5,789 nucleotides of DNA, taken from Candidatus Nitrosopumilus sp. Its GTDB lineage: Archaea > Thermoproteota > Nitrososphaeria > Nitrososphaerales > Nitrosopumilaceae. The notes beneath the pieces are model-generated. The model did not search any database, had not been told where the DNA came from, and saw nothing but the letters and a program-made list of their open reading frames with translations. Location: the NCBI GenBank assembly GCA_018657375.1, contig JABHXI010000022.1:1-5789 (forward strand), in the 5' to 3' direction. Shown here one piece after another: positions 1 through 5,789 of this stretch (the stretch's first letter is position 1; every line of letters starts with the position of its first letter). The position numbers and the translations under genes were made by a program.

Positions 1-705
1 AAACCCTTCTTCACTTCCCAACTGATTTCTATTTTGTGCAAATTTATATCCAAAATATAGCTCTGGACTTCTAAACAACGTATGTTCAAATTCTTCAATA
101 GATACTAATGATGTTGACGACATTGCTTCTATTTTCATTGCTTTAGATCTTTCTTCTAGTAGTTGCTGAATAATTTTTTCTGTTTCTTGATACCCTCCTT
201 CCCCGATATGCTCATATCTTATATTTCCCTGATGATCTGCAATGTATTTTCTTGGCCAGTAATTATTTTCAAATGCTTTCCATGTTTTCATATCATTATC
301 TAGAACTACTGGATAGTCAATACCGTATTTCTCTATTGCAACTTGAACATTTTCTGCATTTTTTTCAAATTCAAATTCTGGTGAATGAATTCCAATTATT
401 AGCAATCCTTGATCTGCATATTTTTCATCCCATGCTGTAATGTATGGAAGTGTTCTGATGCAATTAACACAGCTATATGTCCAGATATCGTACAGGATTA
501 CTTTATTCTCCATATCTTTAGATATTTTTTCAGGTGTTGTGTTGAGATAATCTGATATGCCTACTAAATTTGGAGCCTTTTTAATTCCTGAATCTTCAAT
601 TATTGATGAGGATTCATCTAGACCTATGAATAATATGGCTAAAAATACTACTCCTGCACCAATTAGCCCGCCAAAAATTATGCCTGTTTTAATTTCTGCA
701 TTCAT
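1..705 (-). CDS. Membrane-anchored thioredoxin-like (TlpA/DipZ C-terminal type) protein, 3' end missing
   Basis: Partial gene: 235 codons from ATG (703-705) are open to the left edge, so the C-terminus is missing. Residues about 7-28 form one hydrophobic segment, a signal anchor placing the rest outside the cytoplasm. A thioredoxin-like domain covers about 44-180. Its redox pair is C79-V-N-C82 in the context WTYSCVNCIRTLPY, and the likely cis-proline is P151 (YWPRKY). The WTYSC.NC.RTLPY signature and the following segment SPELYFGYKFAQ (about 213-224) resemble the thioredoxin plus C-terminal domain of DipZ proteins rather than plain TlpA. Its ATG overlaps the ccdA stop (ATGA), so the two are probably translationally coupled. 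Inferred role: extracytoplasmic thiol-disulfide reductase supplied with electrons by the neighbouring CcdA. The substrate is unknown. The fold is well supported; the physiological role is not. Confidence 0.88.
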   Translation of the reverse strand, partial: MNAEIKTGIIFGGLIGAGVVFLAILFIGLDESSSIIEDSGIKKAPNLVGISDYLNTTPEKISKDMENKVILYDIWTYSCVNCIRTLPYITAWDEKYADQGLLIIGIHSPEFEFEKNAENVQVAIEKYGIDYPVVLDNDMKTWKAFENNYWPRKYIADHQGNIRYEHIGEGGYQETEKIIQQLLEERSKAMKIEAMSSTSLVSIEEFEHTLFRSPELYFGYKFAQNRNQLGSEEGF

Positions 706-1433
706 CCTAACATCACGATCTCGTTAAGTAATGGAAAATTTGCAATATATGCAAGTTGGTTTGTAAATATTAAAATTCCCAGCAAGATGATAAATCCTCC
801 TAATACAATGTTGTAATATTTCAAATGTTTTGTCATGGATGAAATAATTTTTGTAGATTTAGAATAAAATATCCCCATTAAAATAAATGGAATGCCTAGA
901 CCTGTGGAATACGCTAGTAGTAAACTAAATGAAATTGAGGGTGTGGTTGCAGCTAATGTGAGTATTGTTCCCAATATTGGTCCAACACATGGTGTCCATC
1001 CTATAGCAAACGCTAAACCAAATACAAATGACATTGGATAGCTTGATTTAAAATTTTTAATGTGGAATTTTTTTTCTTTATTTAACGAATTAATTTTTGT
1101 AGACAATATTAAAAATATTCCAAAGATGATGATAATAATTCCTGCAATTATGTTTAGACTCTCTGTGAATTGATTAACGTTTTCTAATAATGCACTGTTA
1201 ATCAAAACTCCTAAGGTTGAAAAAATAATTGAAAACCCTAAAACAAAAAATATTGTGTTTATTACAATGTTGATTTTATTTATTTGAACATTGGATTTAT
1301 GTGGATTTTTTATTTCATATAATGTAGTTCCAGAAATATATGCTAAAAATGCGGGAATCATTGGCAAGATGCATGGAGCAATAAATGAGGCCAATCCTGC
1401 AAGCAGAGCCACTATTATCGTGGGTTCAGTCAT
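702..1433 (-). CDS. ccdA: CcdA/DsbD-type transmembrane thiol electron transporter
   Basis: A 243-residue polytopic membrane protein. Six hydrophobic segments are visible at about 5-34, 56-82, 94-111, 134-161, 167-190 and 207-227. The paired cysteines that define CcdA/DsbD transporters lie in segments 1 and 4: C21 in FIAPCILP and C149 in GWTPCVGP, each next to prolines as in the family. Length is normal for stand-alone CcdA. Family members carry electrons from cytosolic thioredoxin across the membrane to extracytoplasmic thioredoxin-like proteins; the downstream gene, overlapping by ATGA, encodes such a partner. In DipZ the two parts are one polypeptide, so this is a split version. The ATG at 1431-1433 has a TATA-like box 23-28 nt upstream and only a weak AGGA next to the start, consistent with a leaderless transcript. 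The gene symbol reflects family membership, not proven orthology. Confidence 0.93.
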   Translation of the reverse strand: MTEPTIIVALLAGLASFIAPCILPMIPAFLAYISGTTLYEIKNPHKSNVQINKINIVINTIFFVLGFSIIFSTLGVLINSALLENVNQFTESLNIIAGIIIIIFGIFLILSTKINSLNKEKKFHIKNFKSSYPMSFVFGLAFAIGWTPCVGPILGTILTLAATTPSISFSLLLAYSTGLGIPFILMGIFYSKSTKIISSMTKHLKYYNIVLGGFIILLGILIFTNQLAYIANFPLLNEIVMLG

Positions 1434-1455
1434 GTCCTAATTTCATAATTTTTCC

Positions 1456-1461
1456 TTTAAA
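1456..1461 (-). promoter_or_regulatory. TATA-like box for the ccdA/thioredoxin operon
   Basis: TTTAAA, in the context GGCTTTAAAGG, lies 23-28 nt upstream of the ccdA ATG. That is the spacing expected when archaeal transcription starts at or next to the start codon. No other good TATA candidate at this spacing was seen. Inferred from sequence only. Confidence 0.5.
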
Positions 1462-1474
1462 GCCTTCTTACGCA

Positions 1475-1509
1475 TTTTAACTAGTATCTCACAATCCGTT
1501 TTTAACTAG
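1475..1509. repeat. 10-bp direct repeat TTTTAACTAG in divergent promoter region
   Basis: TTTTAACTAG occurs at 1475-1484 and again at 1500-1509, start to start 25 bp, inside the 94-bp region between the divergent ccdA and small-peptide genes. The right copy coincides with the predicted TATA box of the plus-strand gene. The left copy could be a second TATA-like element or a regulator site. The repeat itself is certain; its function is not known. Confidence 0.5.
1499..1506 (+). promoter_or_regulatory. TATA-like box for the 40-residue membrane peptide gene
   Basis: TTTTTAAC lies 22-29 nt upstream of the ATG at 1528, the position of a TATA box for a leaderless archaeal mRNA. It overlaps the second copy of a 10-bp direct repeat (1500-1509). 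It is back to back with the ccdA promoter on the other strand, so both promoters share about 90 bp. Confidence 0.45.
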
Positions 1510-1527
1510 GGGTTTGATGACTCTGAT

Positions 1528-1650
1528 ATGAATAAACGATTTATTGTCGTAGGTATCATTTTGTCCATAGCTGTGACTATTGCAGTTATCGTGGGCTCTC
1601 CTGCAAATCCATTAGATTTGGCATTTGGTGGAATGGATGCTTCTAGATAA
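1528..1650 (+). CDS. Small single-span membrane peptide, 40 residues, function unknown
   Basis: Forty codons from ATG 1528 to TAA 1648-1650. The product begins MNKRFIVVG, followed by a hydrophobic stretch at about 5-23 (IVVGIILSIAVTIAVIVG), then a short polar tail ending GMDASR. This looks like a signal-anchor micro-protein with positive residues (K3, R4) before the membrane span. Support for a real gene: a TATA-like box at the right distance, no room for a longer gene, and a stop codon that directly abuts the bioF stop codon on the other strand, filling the gap exactly. Family not recognised. It could be a subunit or regulator of a membrane complex, but nothing nearby identifies a partner; its divergent neighbour is the CcdA membrane transporter. 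Confidence 0.6.
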   Translation: MNKRFIVVGIILSIAVTIAVIVGSPANPLDLAFGGMDASR

Positions 1651-2781
1651 TTACAAGAATTTTCTATAGGCTTTTTCAAATATTTTTAACGATTTTTCAA
1701 CATCTGAATTTGTTAGCCACGCCGTCACTGATATTCTTAGTCTAGCTTGATTCTTTGGTACTGTGGGATACCTGATTGGTTGTGCAAATATCCCGTTTAC
1801 AGATAAAAATTTACCAAAATCCATCGCTAATTTTTCACTTCCTAAAATTATTGGTATGATCTGCGTATTTGATTTTATTTCATATCCGATTGATCTTAGC
1901 CCTCTCGCTAATTTTTCTACATTATTTTCTAATTTCTTCTTCTGAGTCTCTCTGTCTGACTCTATTCTTTTAATTGAATGTTGCACTAAAAATGATGGTA
2001 GTGCTGATGTGTAGATAAATGGTTTTGATTTATTTATGCATAAATCAATCACATTATTTTGTGATGCGACATACCCTCCAAATGATCCTAGACCTTTGCT
2101 TAAACTACTGATATACAAATCAATTTTTTTTGCTACATTGAAATGTTCTGGAGTTCCCTTTCCATCTTTTCCCATTACAAAATCCCCGTGTGCGTCATCT
2201 ACAATTGTTATCGCATTTGATTTTTGTGAAATTTCCGTAATTTCTTTTAACGATGATACGTCTCCATCCATACTAAATACACCTTCAGTAATTACAAACT
2301 TATTTTTTCCTTGTATTTTTATTTTCTTTTCTAAATCATCCATGTCATTATGTTTGTAAATGGATATTTTGGCACCTGATAATTTACATGACTCTATGAT
2401 GCTTGCGTGGTTTAATTCATCACTGAGAATTAAATCCCCTTTTGACGCAATTGCTGAAATTGATCCAAGATTTGCCATGTAGCCTGTGGGATAAACCAGA
2501 CTGTTTTGTTGCGATTTGTGTTTTGCCAGTACACTTTCTAATTTCCTATATGATTCATCATTTCCTGAAACAAGTCTGGAACTTGACTGTAATTGATTTG
2601 TTTGAATTTTGGTTATTGGAATTCCAAGATAATCGTTTGAGGACAAATTGATGTGTTTTTTACCTTTAATTGTGATGTGTGAACCTCGTGCTTCACCATA
2701 TTGCAACTTTCTGTGTAGATTATTTTCTTTAATTCGTGCTAATTCTAAATCAATAAAGTTGAGTTTATGCTTCAAGGCCAA
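1651..2781 (-). CDS. bioF: 8-amino-7-oxononanoate synthase (KAPA synthase)
   Basis: A 376-residue PLP enzyme of the alpha-oxoamine synthase family, close in length to E. coli BioF (384). It condenses a pimeloyl thioester with L-alanine, releasing CO2, to give 8-amino-7-oxononanoate, the first committed step of late biotin synthesis in the cytosol. Visible motifs: SSNDYLG (47-53), SGN (72-74), YPTGYMANLG (97-106), DELNHASI (121-128), VDDAHG (194-199; D195 and H198 contact PLP) and the Schiff-base lysine K229 in SSLSKGLGSFGG. A TAG codon at 2788-2790 closes the frame upstream, and the first internal Met is at 102, so translation must begin at TTG 2781 or TTG 2775. This overlaps bioB by 17 nt, implying a bioB-bioF operon with coupled translation. 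No Shine-Dalgarno sequence is visible. Related oxoamine synthases (Kbl, HemA) are less likely given the bioB/bioA neighbours. Confidence 0.95.
   Translation of the reverse strand: MALKHKLNFIDLELARIKENNLHRKLQYGEARGSHITIKGKKHINLSSNDYLGIPITKIQTNQLQSSSRLVSGNDESYRKLESVLAKHKSQQNSLVYPTGYMANLGSISAIASKGDLILSDELNHASIIESCKLSGAKISIYKHNDMDDLEKKIKIQGKNKFVITEGVFSMDGDVSSLKEITEISQKSNAITIVDDAHGDFVMGKDGKGTPEHFNVAKKIDLYISSLSKGLGSFGGYVASQNNVIDLCINKSKPFIYTSALPSFLVQHSIKRIESDRETQKKKLENNVEKLARGLRSIGYEIKSNTQIIPIILGSEKLAMDFGKFLSVNGIFAQPIRYPTVPKNQARLRISVTAWLTNSDVEKSLKIFEKAYRKFL
1672..1697 (+). terminator. Possible T-tract terminator for the small plus-strand gene
   Basis: Three T5 runs (1672-1676, 1683-1687, 1693-1697), spaced 10-11 bp, lie 22-47 nt after the stop codon on the plus strand. 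Archaeal RNA polymerase commonly terminates at oligo-T tracts without a hairpin. The tracts are also antisense to the last codons of bioF, so coding constraints alone could explain them. Confidence 0.3.
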
Positions 2782-3742
2782 TTTTTTCTATCATTTCACG
2801 GTCTTTTTTGGATTTATTTCCGCCCATAGTTAGATATCCTTCAGTAATTATTCCATTTGCTCCACTTTGGAGTAATTCTTCTCCTGAATCCTCTAGTTGA
2901 GTTTCTCTTCCTCCAGAAATTTTAATCACTGATTCTGGTAAGAGAAATCGTATGACTGAAAATATTCTAGTAATTTCAGAATTTGCAAGGTCCACTTGCA
3001 ATTCCAATGGTGTTCCTGGAACTGCAACTAGTATGTTGATTGTTATTTCCTCTGGATATATTCGTGCTAATTCTAAAGTTAATTCTAATCTTTGTTCTCT
3101 TGTTTCTCCCAACCCGATAATTCCGCCTGTACACAATTCCAACCCTGCTTCTCTTGCAATTTCTAGTGTATCTAGTCTATCTTGATATGTGTGTGTTGTA
3201 CATATTTCTGGAAATTTTGATTTTGCTGTTTCTAAATTATGATTGTACCTTTTTACTTTCAGTTCTTTTAATTTTGATGCTTGTTGTTTTGTAAGAAATC
3301 CTAAACTACATTCTACACTAATTCCAACTTTTACATTTATCTCTGTAATTATTTTACAAACTTTTATGAAATCTTTTGGTGATGGTTCTTTCCATGCTGC
3401 AACTAAACAATATGAGTCTGCACCTTCTTCTTTTGCTTTTTTAGCTTTGATTACAACTTCTTCTGGTGTAGGCAATTGATATGTTTCAATACCTGTATCA
3501 AAAAATGCTGATTGCCCACAAAATGTACAATCTTCACTACATGCATTTTTTTTAATATTGTTTAATTGCTCCACATCTACTTTATTTCCATTATAGTCCC
3601 TGGTTATCTCGTTAGCACATTTAGATAATTCCTTAAGATCTTCATCTGGTACATTAAACAATTTTCTTGCATCTTCTACGGAAATTCTTTCTCCTGAAAA
3701 CACCTTTTCTTGACAATCTTTGATGAATTCTAGGTTACTCAT
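2765..3742 (-). CDS. bioB: Biotin synthase (radical SAM)
   Basis: A 325-residue radical-SAM enzyme that inserts sulfur into dethiobiotin, the last step of biotin synthesis. The [4Fe-4S]/SAM motif is C68-x3-C72-x2-C75 (CSEDCTFC). Ligands of the second, sacrificial [2Fe-2S] cluster can be placed by comparison with E. coli C97, C128, C188 and R260: C112 (YCLVAAW), C145 (VECSLG), C204 (ELCTGGIIGLGET) and R279 (ISGGRE). Other BioB hallmarks are YNHNLET (166-172), VAVPGTPL (239-246) and the C-terminal GANGIITEGYLTMGG. All key residues are present, so the enzyme should be active. ATG at 3740-3742 has a good TATA box 22-29 nt upstream and a BirA-type operator further up. The 3' end overlaps bioF by 17 nt, so bioB is first gene of the bioBF unit. 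Confidence 0.97.
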   Translation of the reverse strand: MSNLEFIKDCQEKVFSGERISVEDARKLFNVPDEDLKELSKCANEITRDYNGNKVDVEQLNNIKKNACSEDCTFCGQSAFFDTGIETYQLPTPEEVVIKAKKAKEEGADSYCLVAAWKEPSPKDFIKVCKIITEINVKVGISVECSLGFLTKQQASKLKELKVKRYNHNLETAKSKFPEICTTHTYQDRLDTLEIAREAGLELCTGGIIGLGETREQRLELTLELARIYPEEITINILVAVPGTPLELQVDLANSEITRIFSVIRFLLPESVIKISGGRETQLEDSGEELLQSGANGIITEGYLTMGGNKSKKDREMIEKIGLEA

Positions 3743-3763
3743 GTTGAAACAATTTTTATTCCA

Positions 3764-3771
3764 TTTATAAA
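3764..3771 (-). promoter_or_regulatory. TATA box of the bioB-bioF operon
   Basis: TTTATAAA read on the minus strand lies 22-29 nt upstream of the bioB ATG. It is close to the archaeal TATA consensus and gives a leaderless or near-leaderless mRNA. It is the best TATA match seen in the window. Confidence 0.7.
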
Positions 3772-3781
3772 CATATTGTAA

Positions 3782-3813
3782 TTGTTAACCCTCTTAATTT
3801 TAGGGGTTAACAG
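3782..3813. promoter_or_regulatory. Candidate BirA (biotin repressor) operator upstream of bioB
   Basis: The sequence reads TTGTTAACC (3782-3790), 14 nt, GGTTAACAG (3805-3813). The inner arms TGTTAACCC (3783-3791) and GGGTTAACA (3804-3812) are a perfect 9-bp inverted repeat with centres 21 bp apart, two helical turns. The known BirA operator consensus, shared by bacteria and some archaea, is close to TTGTWAACC, 14-16 nt, GGTTWACAA; 17 of 18 arm positions agree. The site begins directly next to the bioA stop codon and ends 10 bp before the bioB TATA box, where a bound dimer could hinder TFB/TBP loading. The inferred function is biotin-dependent control of bioBF. An RNA hairpin terminator for bioA is less likely because no U-tract follows on that strand. 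Confidence 0.75.
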
Positions 3814-5130
3814 TCAAATAATTTTTGATTTTGATGCCTGAATGGTCTTAATTGTTCTCCTTAGAAGTAATTCTAATTCATTACCTTGAATTGATAGCGG
3901 TGGAACTAGCATTACAATATTCCCCAGAGTTCGAAGGTATATTCCATGTTTTTTCCCTTCTTCAAAGAATACTTTATTGATGGATTTTTTTGTCTTGATT
4001 GGTATCTTTTTTTCTTTGTCTGATACTAACTCTATCCCCATTAGCATTCCCTTGTGTCTGATATCTCCGACAATGTCTATGTCTGAAATTTCTTCATAAT
4101 ACTTTGAAAATATCTTCGATGTTTTTTGAATTTTTTTAATCAAATTGAATTTTTCATACATGTGGATATTCTCATTGGCCACTGCTGCTGCCATTGGATT
4201 TCCAGTATATGTATGACCGTGAAAAAGATGCTTCCAATCATTAAATTCACCTGAAAATGAATCATAGATTTTTTTATTTGTAAGCGTTGCTGCCATCGTC
4301 AAATACCCGCCAGTTAGCATTTTTCCATACGCTGCTATGTCCGGTATGCTTTGCTGTTCTTGATATTGCACCATTGATCCCAATCTTCCAAAACCTGTTG
4401 CTATCTCATCCAGCACAAACAGGATGTCATGTTTTTTACATAACTTGCTAATCTTTTTTTGAAAGTCTTCGGGATAAATTATGACCCCTCCTGCCATCTG
4501 TGCGCCGCTTTCCATTATGAAAGCTGCAATGTCGTCTTTTTTGGAAAACCTTTTTTCAATTTTTTCCAAACACTCGTTTTGATGGTCTTCAAAAGTCAAT
4601 CCTTTTGGTATTCTGTACTTGTTTGGAACTGGAAATTGAATAGTTGGAAACAGTTGCTCTTTAAATTTTGCAAAAAATTCTGGAACGTACCCTACTGACA
4701 TGGCTCCAAACGTGTCCCCGTGATATCCGTTTTCTACAGTTGCAATTTTTGTTCTGTTTCTCTCTCCAGTGTTTTTCCAGTACTGCAACGCAATTTTGAT
4801 TGCAATTTCCATTGCTGATGAGCCATTGTCTGAAAAAAACACCTTGTTCATTCCTGGAGATATTTTCATGAGATTGTCTGCCAGTTTTTCTATGGGCTCG
4901 TTTGTAAGATTGAACAATGATGAATGTTGAATTTTCTTGCTTTGGGTTGTAATTGCTTTAACTAATTGGGGATTGGAGTGCCCCCAAACATTGCACCACA
5001 TTGACCCTACCGCGTCAATTATCTTGTTTCCTTTGGAGTCTATTAGCCATATTCCTTTGCCTTTAGTTATGGTGTCAAATGAACCCCATTCACTCATCTG
5101 CGTGTTTGGATGCCATACTGAACTTTTCAA
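3814..5130 (-). CDS. bioA: Adenosylmethionine-8-amino-7-oxononanoate aminotransferase (DAPA synthase)
   Basis: A 438-residue class-III PLP aminotransferase (E. coli BioA: 429) that converts KAPA to 7,8-diaminopelargonate. Motifs in order: VWHPNTQM (5-12), the N-terminal signature of BioA rather than other omega-aminotransferases; SDNGSSAMEIAIKIALQYW (100-118); GYHGDT (135-140); VLDEIATGFGRLG (239-251) with the PLP-ring aspartate D241; the Schiff-base lysine K270 in YGKMLTGG; HGHTYTGNPMA (304-314); and R400 in LRTLGN, equivalent to the substrate-carboxylate arginine. The start must be TTG at 5128-5130: the preceding codon is a TAG stop, and the N-terminal signature begins at residue 5. Asn9 replaces the Tyr17 of E. 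coli BioA, so the amino donor (SAM or lysine) is uncertain. The gene ends right at the candidate BirA operator and lies 60 bp after a small basic ORF. Confidence 0.95.
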   Translation of the reverse strand: MKSSVWHPNTQMSEWGSFDTITKGKGIWLIDSKGNKIIDAVGSMWCNVWGHSNPQLVKAITTQSKKIQHSSLFNLTNEPIEKLADNLMKISPGMNKVFFSDNGSSAMEIAIKIALQYWKNTGERNRTKIATVENGYHGDTFGAMSVGYVPEFFAKFKEQLFPTIQFPVPNKYRIPKGLTFEDHQNECLEKIEKRFSKKDDIAAFIMESGAQMAGGVIIYPEDFQKKISKLCKKHDILFVLDEIATGFGRLGSMVQYQEQQSIPDIAAYGKMLTGGYLTMAATLTNKKIYDSFSGEFNDWKHLFHGHTYTGNPMAAAVANENIHMYEKFNLIKKIQKTSKIFSKYYEEISDIDIVGDIRHKGMLMGIELVSDKEKKIPIKTKKSINKVFFEEGKKHGIYLRTLGNIVMLVPPLSIQGNELELLLRRTIKTIQASKSKII

Positions 5131-5153
5131 CTAATATTGTTGGATTTGTGAAC

Positions 5154-5160
5154 TTAATAA
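5154..5160 (-). promoter_or_regulatory. Possible TATA-like box for bioA
   Basis: TTATTAA on the minus strand lies 24-30 nt upstream of the bioA TTG start, the expected spacing for a leaderless mRNA. The match is moderate. bioA could instead be read through from the small gene upstream (60-bp gap, same strand). Confidence 0.4.
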
Positions 5161-5190
5161 TTGAGTTGTTGGCAAATTGTGAATGTTATT

Positions 5191-5358
5191 TTAATTTGAT
5201 TGTATCTTTGACTGTTTTTTTTCTAAACTCATTTGATAGTACATGCGCTGTTTTTTTAAATTGAGAATTTCCCTATTTTTTTCCCTGTATCTTTTGTTTT
5301 GTTCTCGTCTGACCTCCTTGTTTTCTTTTTTTAACCTATTTAGAAATTCTAGAGACAT
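5191..5358 (-). CDS. Small, highly basic, probably helical protein, 55 residues, function unknown
   Basis: Fifty-five codons from ATG 5356-5358 to TAA 5191-5193. The product has 17 Lys/Arg against 7 Glu and no Asp (net about +10), no Cys, Pro, Gly or Trp, and is dominated by charged helix-favouring residues, for example RREQNKRYREKNRE (17-30). That composition suggests one long helix or coiled coil that may bind nucleic acid. A strong TATA-like box lies 21-29 nt before the ATG, which is the main evidence that it is expressed. It lies 60 bp upstream of bioA on the same strand and may share a transcript. Family not recognised. Low-complexity AAA-rich coding could make it a chance ORF, so confidence is moderate. 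Confidence 0.55.
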   Translation of the reverse strand: MSLEFLNRLKKENKEVRREQNKRYREKNREILNLKKQRMYYQMSLEKKQSKIQSN

Positions 5359-5493
5359 TCCATTGTTTCCCTATTTTTTATATTAAAATCACATTTTTTT
5401 TTCATAATGGTTAGAATTTCTGTAATGCATGCGAATATTCTTGTTCTATACCTGTAGAATTAAACAATTTGATGTTTGTACCATTCCAGATTA
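5359..5493. other. Divergent intergenic region
   Basis: This 135-bp stretch lies between the minus-strand 55-residue gene and the plus-strand HTH ORF. It holds the TATA box of the former at 5379-5387 and a weak TATA-like AATTAAAC at 5458-5465 for the latter. Only reading frames under 20 codons were found, and no RNA gene was recognised. Confidence 0.5.
5379..5387 (-). promoter_or_regulatory. TATA box for the 55-residue basic protein
   Basis: TTTAATATA on the minus strand lies 21-29 nt upstream of ATG 5358. It is a good archaeal TATA match at leaderless spacing. It could also drive bioA by read-through. Confidence 0.5.
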
Positions 5494-5789
5494 ATGCTAG
5501 TTTTGATTAGATTAAGTGATTTGAATAGTTCTAATCACCTGATTCAGTTTTCAGAACTAGAATTTGCTTCAAGTGTTGAGCTCTCTTTGCCATTTTTCAC
5601 GCTTATGATCATAGTTGGTATGATGTCCACAAAAAATATGATGAAAAGAAAAAACTCTTGTCGTCAAATAATTCTAGATACCGTTTTATCCAAACCTATA
5701 ACCTTTATGAAATTAGTTTCCGAATCACAATGTGCTTCAGAAACTGTTGAAAAATATGTTAGACTGCTTCTTGATGATTGTGATATTCA
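5494..5789 (+). CDS. Putative winged-helix/HTH DNA-binding protein, 3' end missing
   Basis: An open frame of 98 codons from ATG 5494 to the right edge; the C-terminus is outside the window. Residues about 56-95 read like a winged-helix HTH: helix CRQIILDTVLS, helix TFMKLVSES, then a recognition-type helix beginning ASETVEKYVR and continuing LLLDD. The basic stretch MKRKNSCR precedes it. The start is uncertain. Later in-frame ATGs at 5605, 5620, 5623, 5638 and 5641 would put the HTH near the N-terminus, as is usual. The first 37 codons contain inverted repeats and may be untranslated leader. None of the starts has a convincing TATA box; AATTAAAC at 5458-5465 fits ATG 5494 best. It may be a transcription regulator; whether it concerns the biotin genes cannot be told from the part visible. 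Confidence 0.5.
   Translation, partial: MLVLIRLSDLNSSNHLIQFSELEFASSVELSLPFFTLMIIVGMMSTKNMMKRKNSCRQIILDTVLSKPITFMKLVSESQCASETVEKYVRLLLDDCDI
5497..5560 (+). repeat. Nested inverted repeats near the start of the HTH ORF
   Basis: Two inverted repeats can be read. The inner pair is TGATTAGA (5504-5511) with TCTAATCA (5530-5537), a perfect 8 bp. The outer pair is CTAGTTTTGA (5497-5506) with TCAGAACTAG (5551-5560), 9 of 10. They can form one bulged stem using 5497-5503 in the outer arm. They may be a leader-RNA structure or operator half-sites. AT-rich chance pairing is not excluded. Confidence 0.35.

Follow-up and report, generated by a model that had tools for sequence, protein, structure and literature searches.

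A predicted BirA operator at bioB and a matching dyad at ribosomal protein L3 in Nitrosopumilus and its relatives

An inverted repeat in front of the biotin synthase gene, bioB, of a Candidatus Nitrosopumilus genome is likely, as judged from its letters, its place and its distribution, the operator of the cell's own biotin protein ligase, BirA, and a near-equal dyad stands in front of the gene for ribosomal protein L3 in a branch of the same family that includes Nitrosopumilus. We have considerable confidence in this explanation as a whole, by which the first dyad would be the operator of bioB-bioF and the dyad at L3-L4 probably a second site.

Results

The bioB dyad and its promoter

The window, by which we mean the whole analysed stretch of 5,789 nucleotides (contig JABHXI010000022.1, positions 1 to 5,789), belongs to an assembly of 178 contigs and 959,454 bases that is 75% complete. 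The first gene downstream of the dyad is bioB, biotin synthase (2765..3742, minus strand), so named both here and in the sequence-only reading and matching Radical_SAM (6e-25) and BATS (6.9e-19), and its product is 97% and 96% identical to the BioB proteins of two Nitrosopumilus MAGs. The end of bioB is overlapped by a probable bioF (1651..2781, minus strand; Aminotran_1_2, aminotransferase class I/II in Pfam, 1.3e-54), which is likely co-transcribed with it, and upstream of the dyad lies a probable bioA (3814..5130, minus strand; Aminotran_3, aminotransferase class III in Pfam, 3.4e-97), the names bioF and bioA both being assigned here. Genes for a redoxin-like protein and a DsbD-type membrane protein adjoin the bio genes (1-1433, minus strand), and an open frame without a Pfam match (5476-5787, plus strand) runs past the end of the window.

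The dyad itself, TTGTTAACC-N14-GGTTAACAG (3782..3813, no strand assigned), is a predicted BirA operator that is kept before bioB in relatives, and in the window it directly adjoins the stop codon of the bioA-like gene. Its promoter-proximal arm, TTGTTAACC (3782..3790, no strand), agrees at 9/9 positions with TTGTWAACC, the consensus in PMC545781, and its promoter-distal arm, GGTTAACAG (3805..3813, no strand), at 8/9 with GGTTWACAA, so that 17 of the 18 arm positions fit at a spacer of N14. A stretch of 10 bp (3772..3781, minus strand), in which BRE and TFB contact would be expected, separates the dyad from the TATA-like box of the bioB promoter, TTTATAAA (3764..3771, minus strand), and similar boxes occur in the bioB promoters of relatives. 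The sequence-only reading had described the arms, their coordinates and their fit to the BirA consensus, as well as the 10 bp distance to the bioB TATA box, and all of this holds when checked against the sequence. Because the TATA box lies only about 29 bp from the ATG (3742, minus strand), the bioB transcript is probably leaderless. A relaxed form of the dyad pattern matches once in the window, and the pattern TGTWAACC-N12-18-GGTTWACA has a single match across the 959,454 bases of the assembly.

Conservation of the dyad before bioB in relatives

We collected 80 named bioB loci, of which 79 provide upstream sequence once L119, which starts inside bioB, is left out. The arms GTWAACC/GGTTWAC are matched at 14/14 positions in 48 of these loci, at 13 in 10, at 12 in 2 and at 11 or fewer in 19, and the spacers of the 60 loci with arms at 12/14 or better are N14 in 37, N15 in 22 and N16 in one. 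An absence of the dyad from relatives whose promoter is otherwise conserved had been put forward as evidence against the earlier reading; what we found is a dyad of at least 13/14 within 160 bp of bioB in 58/79 named loci, kept together with the promoter. Only 1 of 7,900 mononucleotide shuffles of these loci, which preserve base composition only, reached 13, and in the window the relaxed pattern appeared in 0/200 dinucleotide shuffles; on these counts we rejected a chance origin of the bioB dyad.

In 52 of the 58 loci at 13-14/14 the dyad stops 37-47 bp short of bioB, with a TATA-like box following directly, and in the remaining six (L061, L064, L068, L072, L081, L091), as in G059, it ends 74-80 bp before the gene. 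These seven have a longer stretch between the dyad and the TATA box, and no bioA-like open reading frame was seen directly upstream in the six named loci, no upstream frame having been read for L064. In many named loci about 66-78 bp separate the end of a bioA-like gene from bioB. Of the 21/79 loci that do not reach 13/14, seven bear the title Nitrosarchaeum (L095, L096, L097, L100, L103, L113 and L114).

A second sample, the promoter table, consisted of 77 of the 151 family genomes, our own included, chosen by hand with an eye to the range of genera and the quality of the assemblies and hence not random; without G109 and G143, and with our own genome entered by L3 only (its bioB promoter being that of the window), this gave 75 L3 and 74 bioB promoters from 22 genera. 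The bioB dyad was present at 12/14 or better in 54/74 of these genomes (only about 71 bases upstream were read for G010), and in 45/52 bioB promoters 10-14 bp lay between its inner arm edge and the best TATA-like octamer, which was sought 6-24 bp from the arm here and at L3. All eight g14 bioB promoters are without the dyad and instead share the letters ACGCA and, closer to the gene, ACTAATCTTTTTTAAT.

The strict pattern TGTWAACC-N12-18-GGTTWACA occurs in 19/151 family genomes and its reversed control in 13; among the 18 strict-pattern genomes besides our own, bio genes adjoin the dyad in 17, and the site in G041 (L032) is at L3. Of 250 genomes sampled across the class, 99 have an exact match to GTWAACC-N14-15-GGTTWAC, with some hits of the reversed control both inside and outside the family. 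Outside the family only 4/104 genomes match exactly (G240, G241, G255 and G269), and in G241, which belongs to another family and is the one of the four that was examined, the dyad adjoins bioB.

A matching dyad before ribosomal protein L3

The narrower pattern GTTAACC-N13-16-GGTTAAC matched in 39/50 genomes, two to three times in many of them, and its reversed control in 2. Among the 30 loci read, the recurring place other than bioB lies between a putative RNA methyltransferase gene and the gene for L3, which is followed by L4 (gene names by Pfam for one locus, L168). The sequence-only reading had proposed a BirA-type site in the bio locus; the site is indeed kept in relatives, and the bio locus is not its sole place.

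In the promoter table the L3 dyad (13-14/14, N14, 47-50 bp before the L3 start) was found in 36/75 genomes, comprising all 36 sampled genomes of g1 (Nitrosopumilus), g4, g13, g14 and g18, and in 0/39 of the others. The copy in our own genome (G000:C72:9038-9065) fits the BirA consensus at 16/18 positions. The record titled Nitrosopumilus sp. Nsub (L055) likewise carries a dyad at each of the two genes, with 13/14 arm letters at bioB, and the ligase is present in its genome (L153). All 36 sites read TnGTTAACC-N14-GGTTAACnA, none departing from it at more than one of the inner 14 letters: each arm contains GTTAAC without exception, the inner-edge C is kept in 83% and the inner-edge G in 81%, and the outermost T and A of the consensus are kept in 36/36, with a varying letter beside them. 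The spacer is N14 throughout, mostly AT-rich and much less conserved than the arms, whereas that of the bioB sites varies between N14 and N15, and the letters flanking the arms differ between the two sets. In 36/36 L3 promoters a gap of 14-15 bp separates the arm edge from the best TATA-like octamer.

Searching 26 genomes for GTTAACC-N14-GGTTAAC with at most one mismatch returned 32 sites, spread over 25 of the genomes; L3 accounts for 25 of them and bioB for 7, and there was no third place for the motif in this search, in which the spacer was fixed at N14 and N15 bioB sites therefore lay outside. The reversed control gave 13 hits. The genes downstream, L3 and L4, are not the biotin synthesis or transport genes that form the usual context of a BirA site, and for this reason we limit the claim for the L3 dyad to saying that it likely works like a BirA site.

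The ligase and its helix-turn-helix

A family-wide search with Pfam profiles found the ligase domain in 138/151 genomes, including 96/96 of those with completeness of at least 90% and contamination of at most 5%, and did not find it in our own assembly, which is 75% complete. With the protein of a near relative as the query, a ligase gene cut off by a contig end was found at C88:3111-3281; its first 57 residues, LIYNSFDDTGLLRVLTFLKTHDTEYLSGQDLSDVLRISRVAVWKHIKKIQTLGYTIE, are 96% identical to the query and match HTH_11 at 4.8e-11. We thus rejected the notion that the ligase of this genome is missing or free of a helix-turn-helix. The earlier reading had called for a search for birA with an N-terminal helix-turn-helix, regarding a ligase without a DNA-binding domain as evidence against it, and the fragment recovered here carries just such a domain. 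A complete family ligase, L290, has HTH_11, the BPL catalytic domain and BPL_C, all above Pfam cut-offs (Group II ligase), and aligns with chain 6apw, which we take to be S. aureus BirA, over residues 14-330 (E 8.9e-37) and with 1bia, presumably E. coli BirA, over residues 22-321 (E 5.9e-23).

Ligases were aligned for 64 hand-picked genomes in which both promoters had been read. HTH_11 was found at E <=0.01 in 56/64, among them G023, whose match is below the Pfam cut-off and was counted as absent. Ten cases were rescanned, of which nine were without HTH_11 or below cut-off (three of g15, two of g11, two of g5, G006 and G023) and one, G016, has HTH_11; beyond these, bit scores for HTH_11 were seen only for L290 and L308. 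G076 was counted by the intact N-terminal part of its ligase. The 55 genomes with a helix-turn-helix ligase divide into 27 with the bioB dyad only, 17 with both dyads, 10 with the L3 dyad only and one, G016, with neither, so that a dyad is present at bioB and/or L3 in 54/55 genomes with the helix-turn-helix as against 0/9 without it. Taking this co-occurrence together with the consensus match, the conservation before bioB and the ligase fragment of our own genome, we regard the bioB dyad as very likely a BirA operator. In the assemblies of the nine helix-turn-helix-free genomes and of G016, which are 84-99% complete, there is no exact match to GTWAACC-N13-16-GGTTWAC. All 27 L3-dyad genomes whose ligase was read have the helix-turn-helix, and 0/9 helix-turn-helix-free genomes have the L3 dyad, a weak association given that a single branch is involved.

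On a quick ligase tree made from the catalytic part only, in which long branches meet and g7, g11 and g16 are placed with little certainty, the helix-turn-helix needs three changes, dyad presence three and the L3 dyad one, by which the L3 dyad may have arisen once. There is one independent pair on well-supported branches and three on all branches, too few for a sign test; under random pairings, dyad presence went in the same direction in nearly all, showed no difference in a few and was never opposite.

The L3 dyad occurs without a bioB dyad in eight g14 genomes, G134 and G013, all with an intact helix-turn-helix. Across the eight g14 genomes the mean identity of the helix-turn-helix is 95.5% as against 76.5% for the catalytic part, a pattern that is not special to g14, the corresponding values for g1 being 90.4 and 72.1%. 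Where no dyad was found, the relation is reversed: the helix-turn-helix is at 38.9% in g5 and 19.6% in g11 and the catalytic part at 64.0% and 42.7%. Since the helix-turn-helix is kept in g14 and much less conserved in g5 and g11, where no dyad was found, the DNA-binding part seems to be still under selection in g14, where L3 is the only motif site found. The N-terminal domain of E. coli BirA also serves ligase activity (PMC4016012), and conservation of the helix-turn-helix alone is therefore no proof of binding at L3.

Discussion

A model of control by the cell's own BirA

The observations above concern where the dyads stand, how well they are conserved and how they co-occur with the helix-turn-helix; BirA binding, its ligand and the sign of regulation are what we infer from them. 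The BirA of these cells, predicted to bind DNA through its N-terminal helix-turn-helix, would control transcription of bioB-bioF. The biotin-demanding acceptor here is presumably the CO2-fixing carboxylase. By the bacterial rule, an acceptor carboxylase short of biotin would keep BirA busy, leaving the dyad free and bioB transcribed; once the carboxylase is saturated, BirA carrying biotinyl-5'-AMP would dimerize and bind the dyad beside the BRE, where it would likely hinder TFB and TBP, so that bioB would be off when biotin is not in demand. At L3 the same logic would lower ribosomal-protein transcription once carboxylase synthesis stops, and BirA would act as a sensor tying the demand for biotinylation to the transcription of ribosomal proteins. 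In bacteria, E. coli BirA represses once biotinyl-5'-AMP accumulates and all acceptor proteins are biotinylated, and B. subtilis BirA needs biotin and ATP for DNA binding and does not bind a half-site (PMC4016012). We consider it reasonably probable that BirA, which the sequence-only reading took to be a repressor, acts by repression here too. Simple occlusion of the TATA box is unlikely at the six named loci and G059 described above, because their dyads lie 74-80 bp before bioB. We give even chances to the full two-target form of the model, in which a single BirA would serve biotin synthesis and the L3-L4 operon in Nitrosopumilus and related genera, the free capacity for carboxylase biotinylation would set ribosome production, and g14, its bioB dyad lost, would be left with the ribosomal operon as its only dyad-marked target.

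Alternative explanations

The strongest competing view confines BirA to the bioB dyad and assigns the L3 dyad to another regulator that shares the arms, and we give it somewhat less than an even chance. It would sit well with the single origin of the L3 dyad, with the separate distributions of the two sites (27/64 genomes with only the bioB dyad, 10/64 with only that at L3), with a mostly AT-rich L3 spacer that is N14 in 36/36 and flanking letters unlike those at bioB, and with the lack of a precedent for BirA at a ribosomal operon among the matches listed in the open-licence literature. A separate regulator is harder to reconcile with the outermost consensus T and A, which are kept in 36/36 L3 sites, with the N14 motif having no third place in 26 genomes, and with the strong conservation of the helix-turn-helix in genomes whose one dyad found is that at L3. 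We lean, by a little, towards the same BirA also binding the L3-L4 dyad in the branch of g1, g4, g13, g14 and g18.

BirA might also use the dyad as an activator site, contacting TFB and TBP from upstream of the BRE, and the geometry would allow it, with arm edges 10-14 bp before the TATA-like octamer in 45/52 bioB promoters and 14-15 bp in 36/36 L3 promoters; regulators of the TrmB family are activators when bound upstream of BRE/TATA and repressors when bound downstream (PMC4158304, PMC4706686), and in biotin-replete cells it would make sense for a ribosomal operon to be activated. We nevertheless find this doubtful, as biotin-loaded BirA switching on biotin synthesis would amount to positive feedback and bacterial BirA represses (PMC4016012). 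That a regulator other than BirA acts at the bioB dyad is improbable in view of the match to the BirA consensus, the place before bioB and the co-occurrence with the ligase helix-turn-helix. In its favour, BirA binding here is a prediction from sequence, the losses of helix-turn-helix and dyad share only about three changes on the tree, and G016, the counterpoint to our reading, has the helix-turn-helix and no full dyad. Least credible of all is that the dyad forms a transcript hairpin such as a bioA terminator, as might be suggested by its contact with the bioA-like stop codon in the window and by the bioA-like genes that end shortly before bioB in many loci. We rejected such a terminator: the dyad persists before bioB where no bioA-like frame directly precedes it (L061, L068, L072, L081, L091), its L3 counterpart lies upstream of the L3 TATA-like box, and the arm letters themselves are kept, not pairing alone.

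Relation to known systems

Own-BirA control of bioB would have a close bacterial model, whose consensus, TTGTAAACC-[N14/15]-GGTTTACAA (Table 1 of PMC545781), is widely conserved (PMC545781). The sites described here are like bacterial BirA operators in their arms, their spacing, their place before bioB and the presence in the genome of a ligase with a DNA-binding domain; they differ in lying upstream of an archaeal BRE/TATA promoter, in having GTTAACC arms in the branch with the L3 dyad, and in the second, matching dyad before L3. In archaea it is ordinary for a regulator of bacterial type to act on a TBP/TFB promoter (PMC4158304). The TrmB family likewise places a bacterial-type helix-turn-helix protein at a palindrome adjoining BRE/TATA, with the difference that it senses sugars, has an unrelated effector domain and is known with both regulatory signs (PMC4158304, PMC4706686). 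The bio genes of Thaumarchaeota have been described, with BirA regulation mentioned in general (PMC6138646), and among the matches listed in the open-licence literature, as titles and abstract beginnings, no title reports BirA sites for Nitrosopumilus or for a ribosomal operon.

The bioB dyad is an expected extension of an earlier predicted regulon. Rodionov, Mironov and Gelfand in 2002 reportedly predicted, in Archaea, sites ahead of bio genes and a BirA that has a DNA-binding domain, the same two features that we find here; to our knowledge, genomes of Nitrososphaerota had yet to appear at that time, and the study is not known to have named a ribosomal target. The new part is the pairing of bioB with L3, at which binding is predicted. 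Nitrosopumilus-type archaea are among the most abundant archaea of the ocean. If the model is true, a cofactor ligase setting the transcription of ribosomal proteins would be a new coupling of growth to carbon fixation, and one helix-turn-helix protein with two matching, TATA-adjoining dyads would provide a clean natural system for bacterial-type regulation of TBP/TFB.

Variant sites and ligase frames

Partial forms of the motif occur at L3 outside the branch with the upstream dyad. In 20 of the 39 sampled L3 promoters that are without it, a single GGTTWAC lies close to the TATA box, 24-31 bp ahead of the L3 ATG; all 9 genomes without a helix-turn-helix ligase lack it, as do 10 of the remaining 30. 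At the W position it has the letter of the bioB right arm in 19/19 comparable genomes. In g17 a near-complete dyad (12-13/14, N15) spans the L3 TATA box.

Two genomes have unusual arrangements at the bio locus or the ligase. At L185 (G185:C14:15872) a bioA-like gene is followed by a dyad and, 67 bases on, by the contig end, and another contig of G185 carries a dyad before bioB (L091) and a further dyad about 8 kb away. The one-contig genome G076 has its ligase gene broken into two frames (L305, G076:C1:1008000-1010000), and its bioB dyad has a spacer of 16 and 13/14 arm letters. A second ligase match in a short open frame of 242-251 aa, as long as a ligase lacking the helix-turn-helix should be, is present in G002, G027, G129, G111, G037, G053 and G007.
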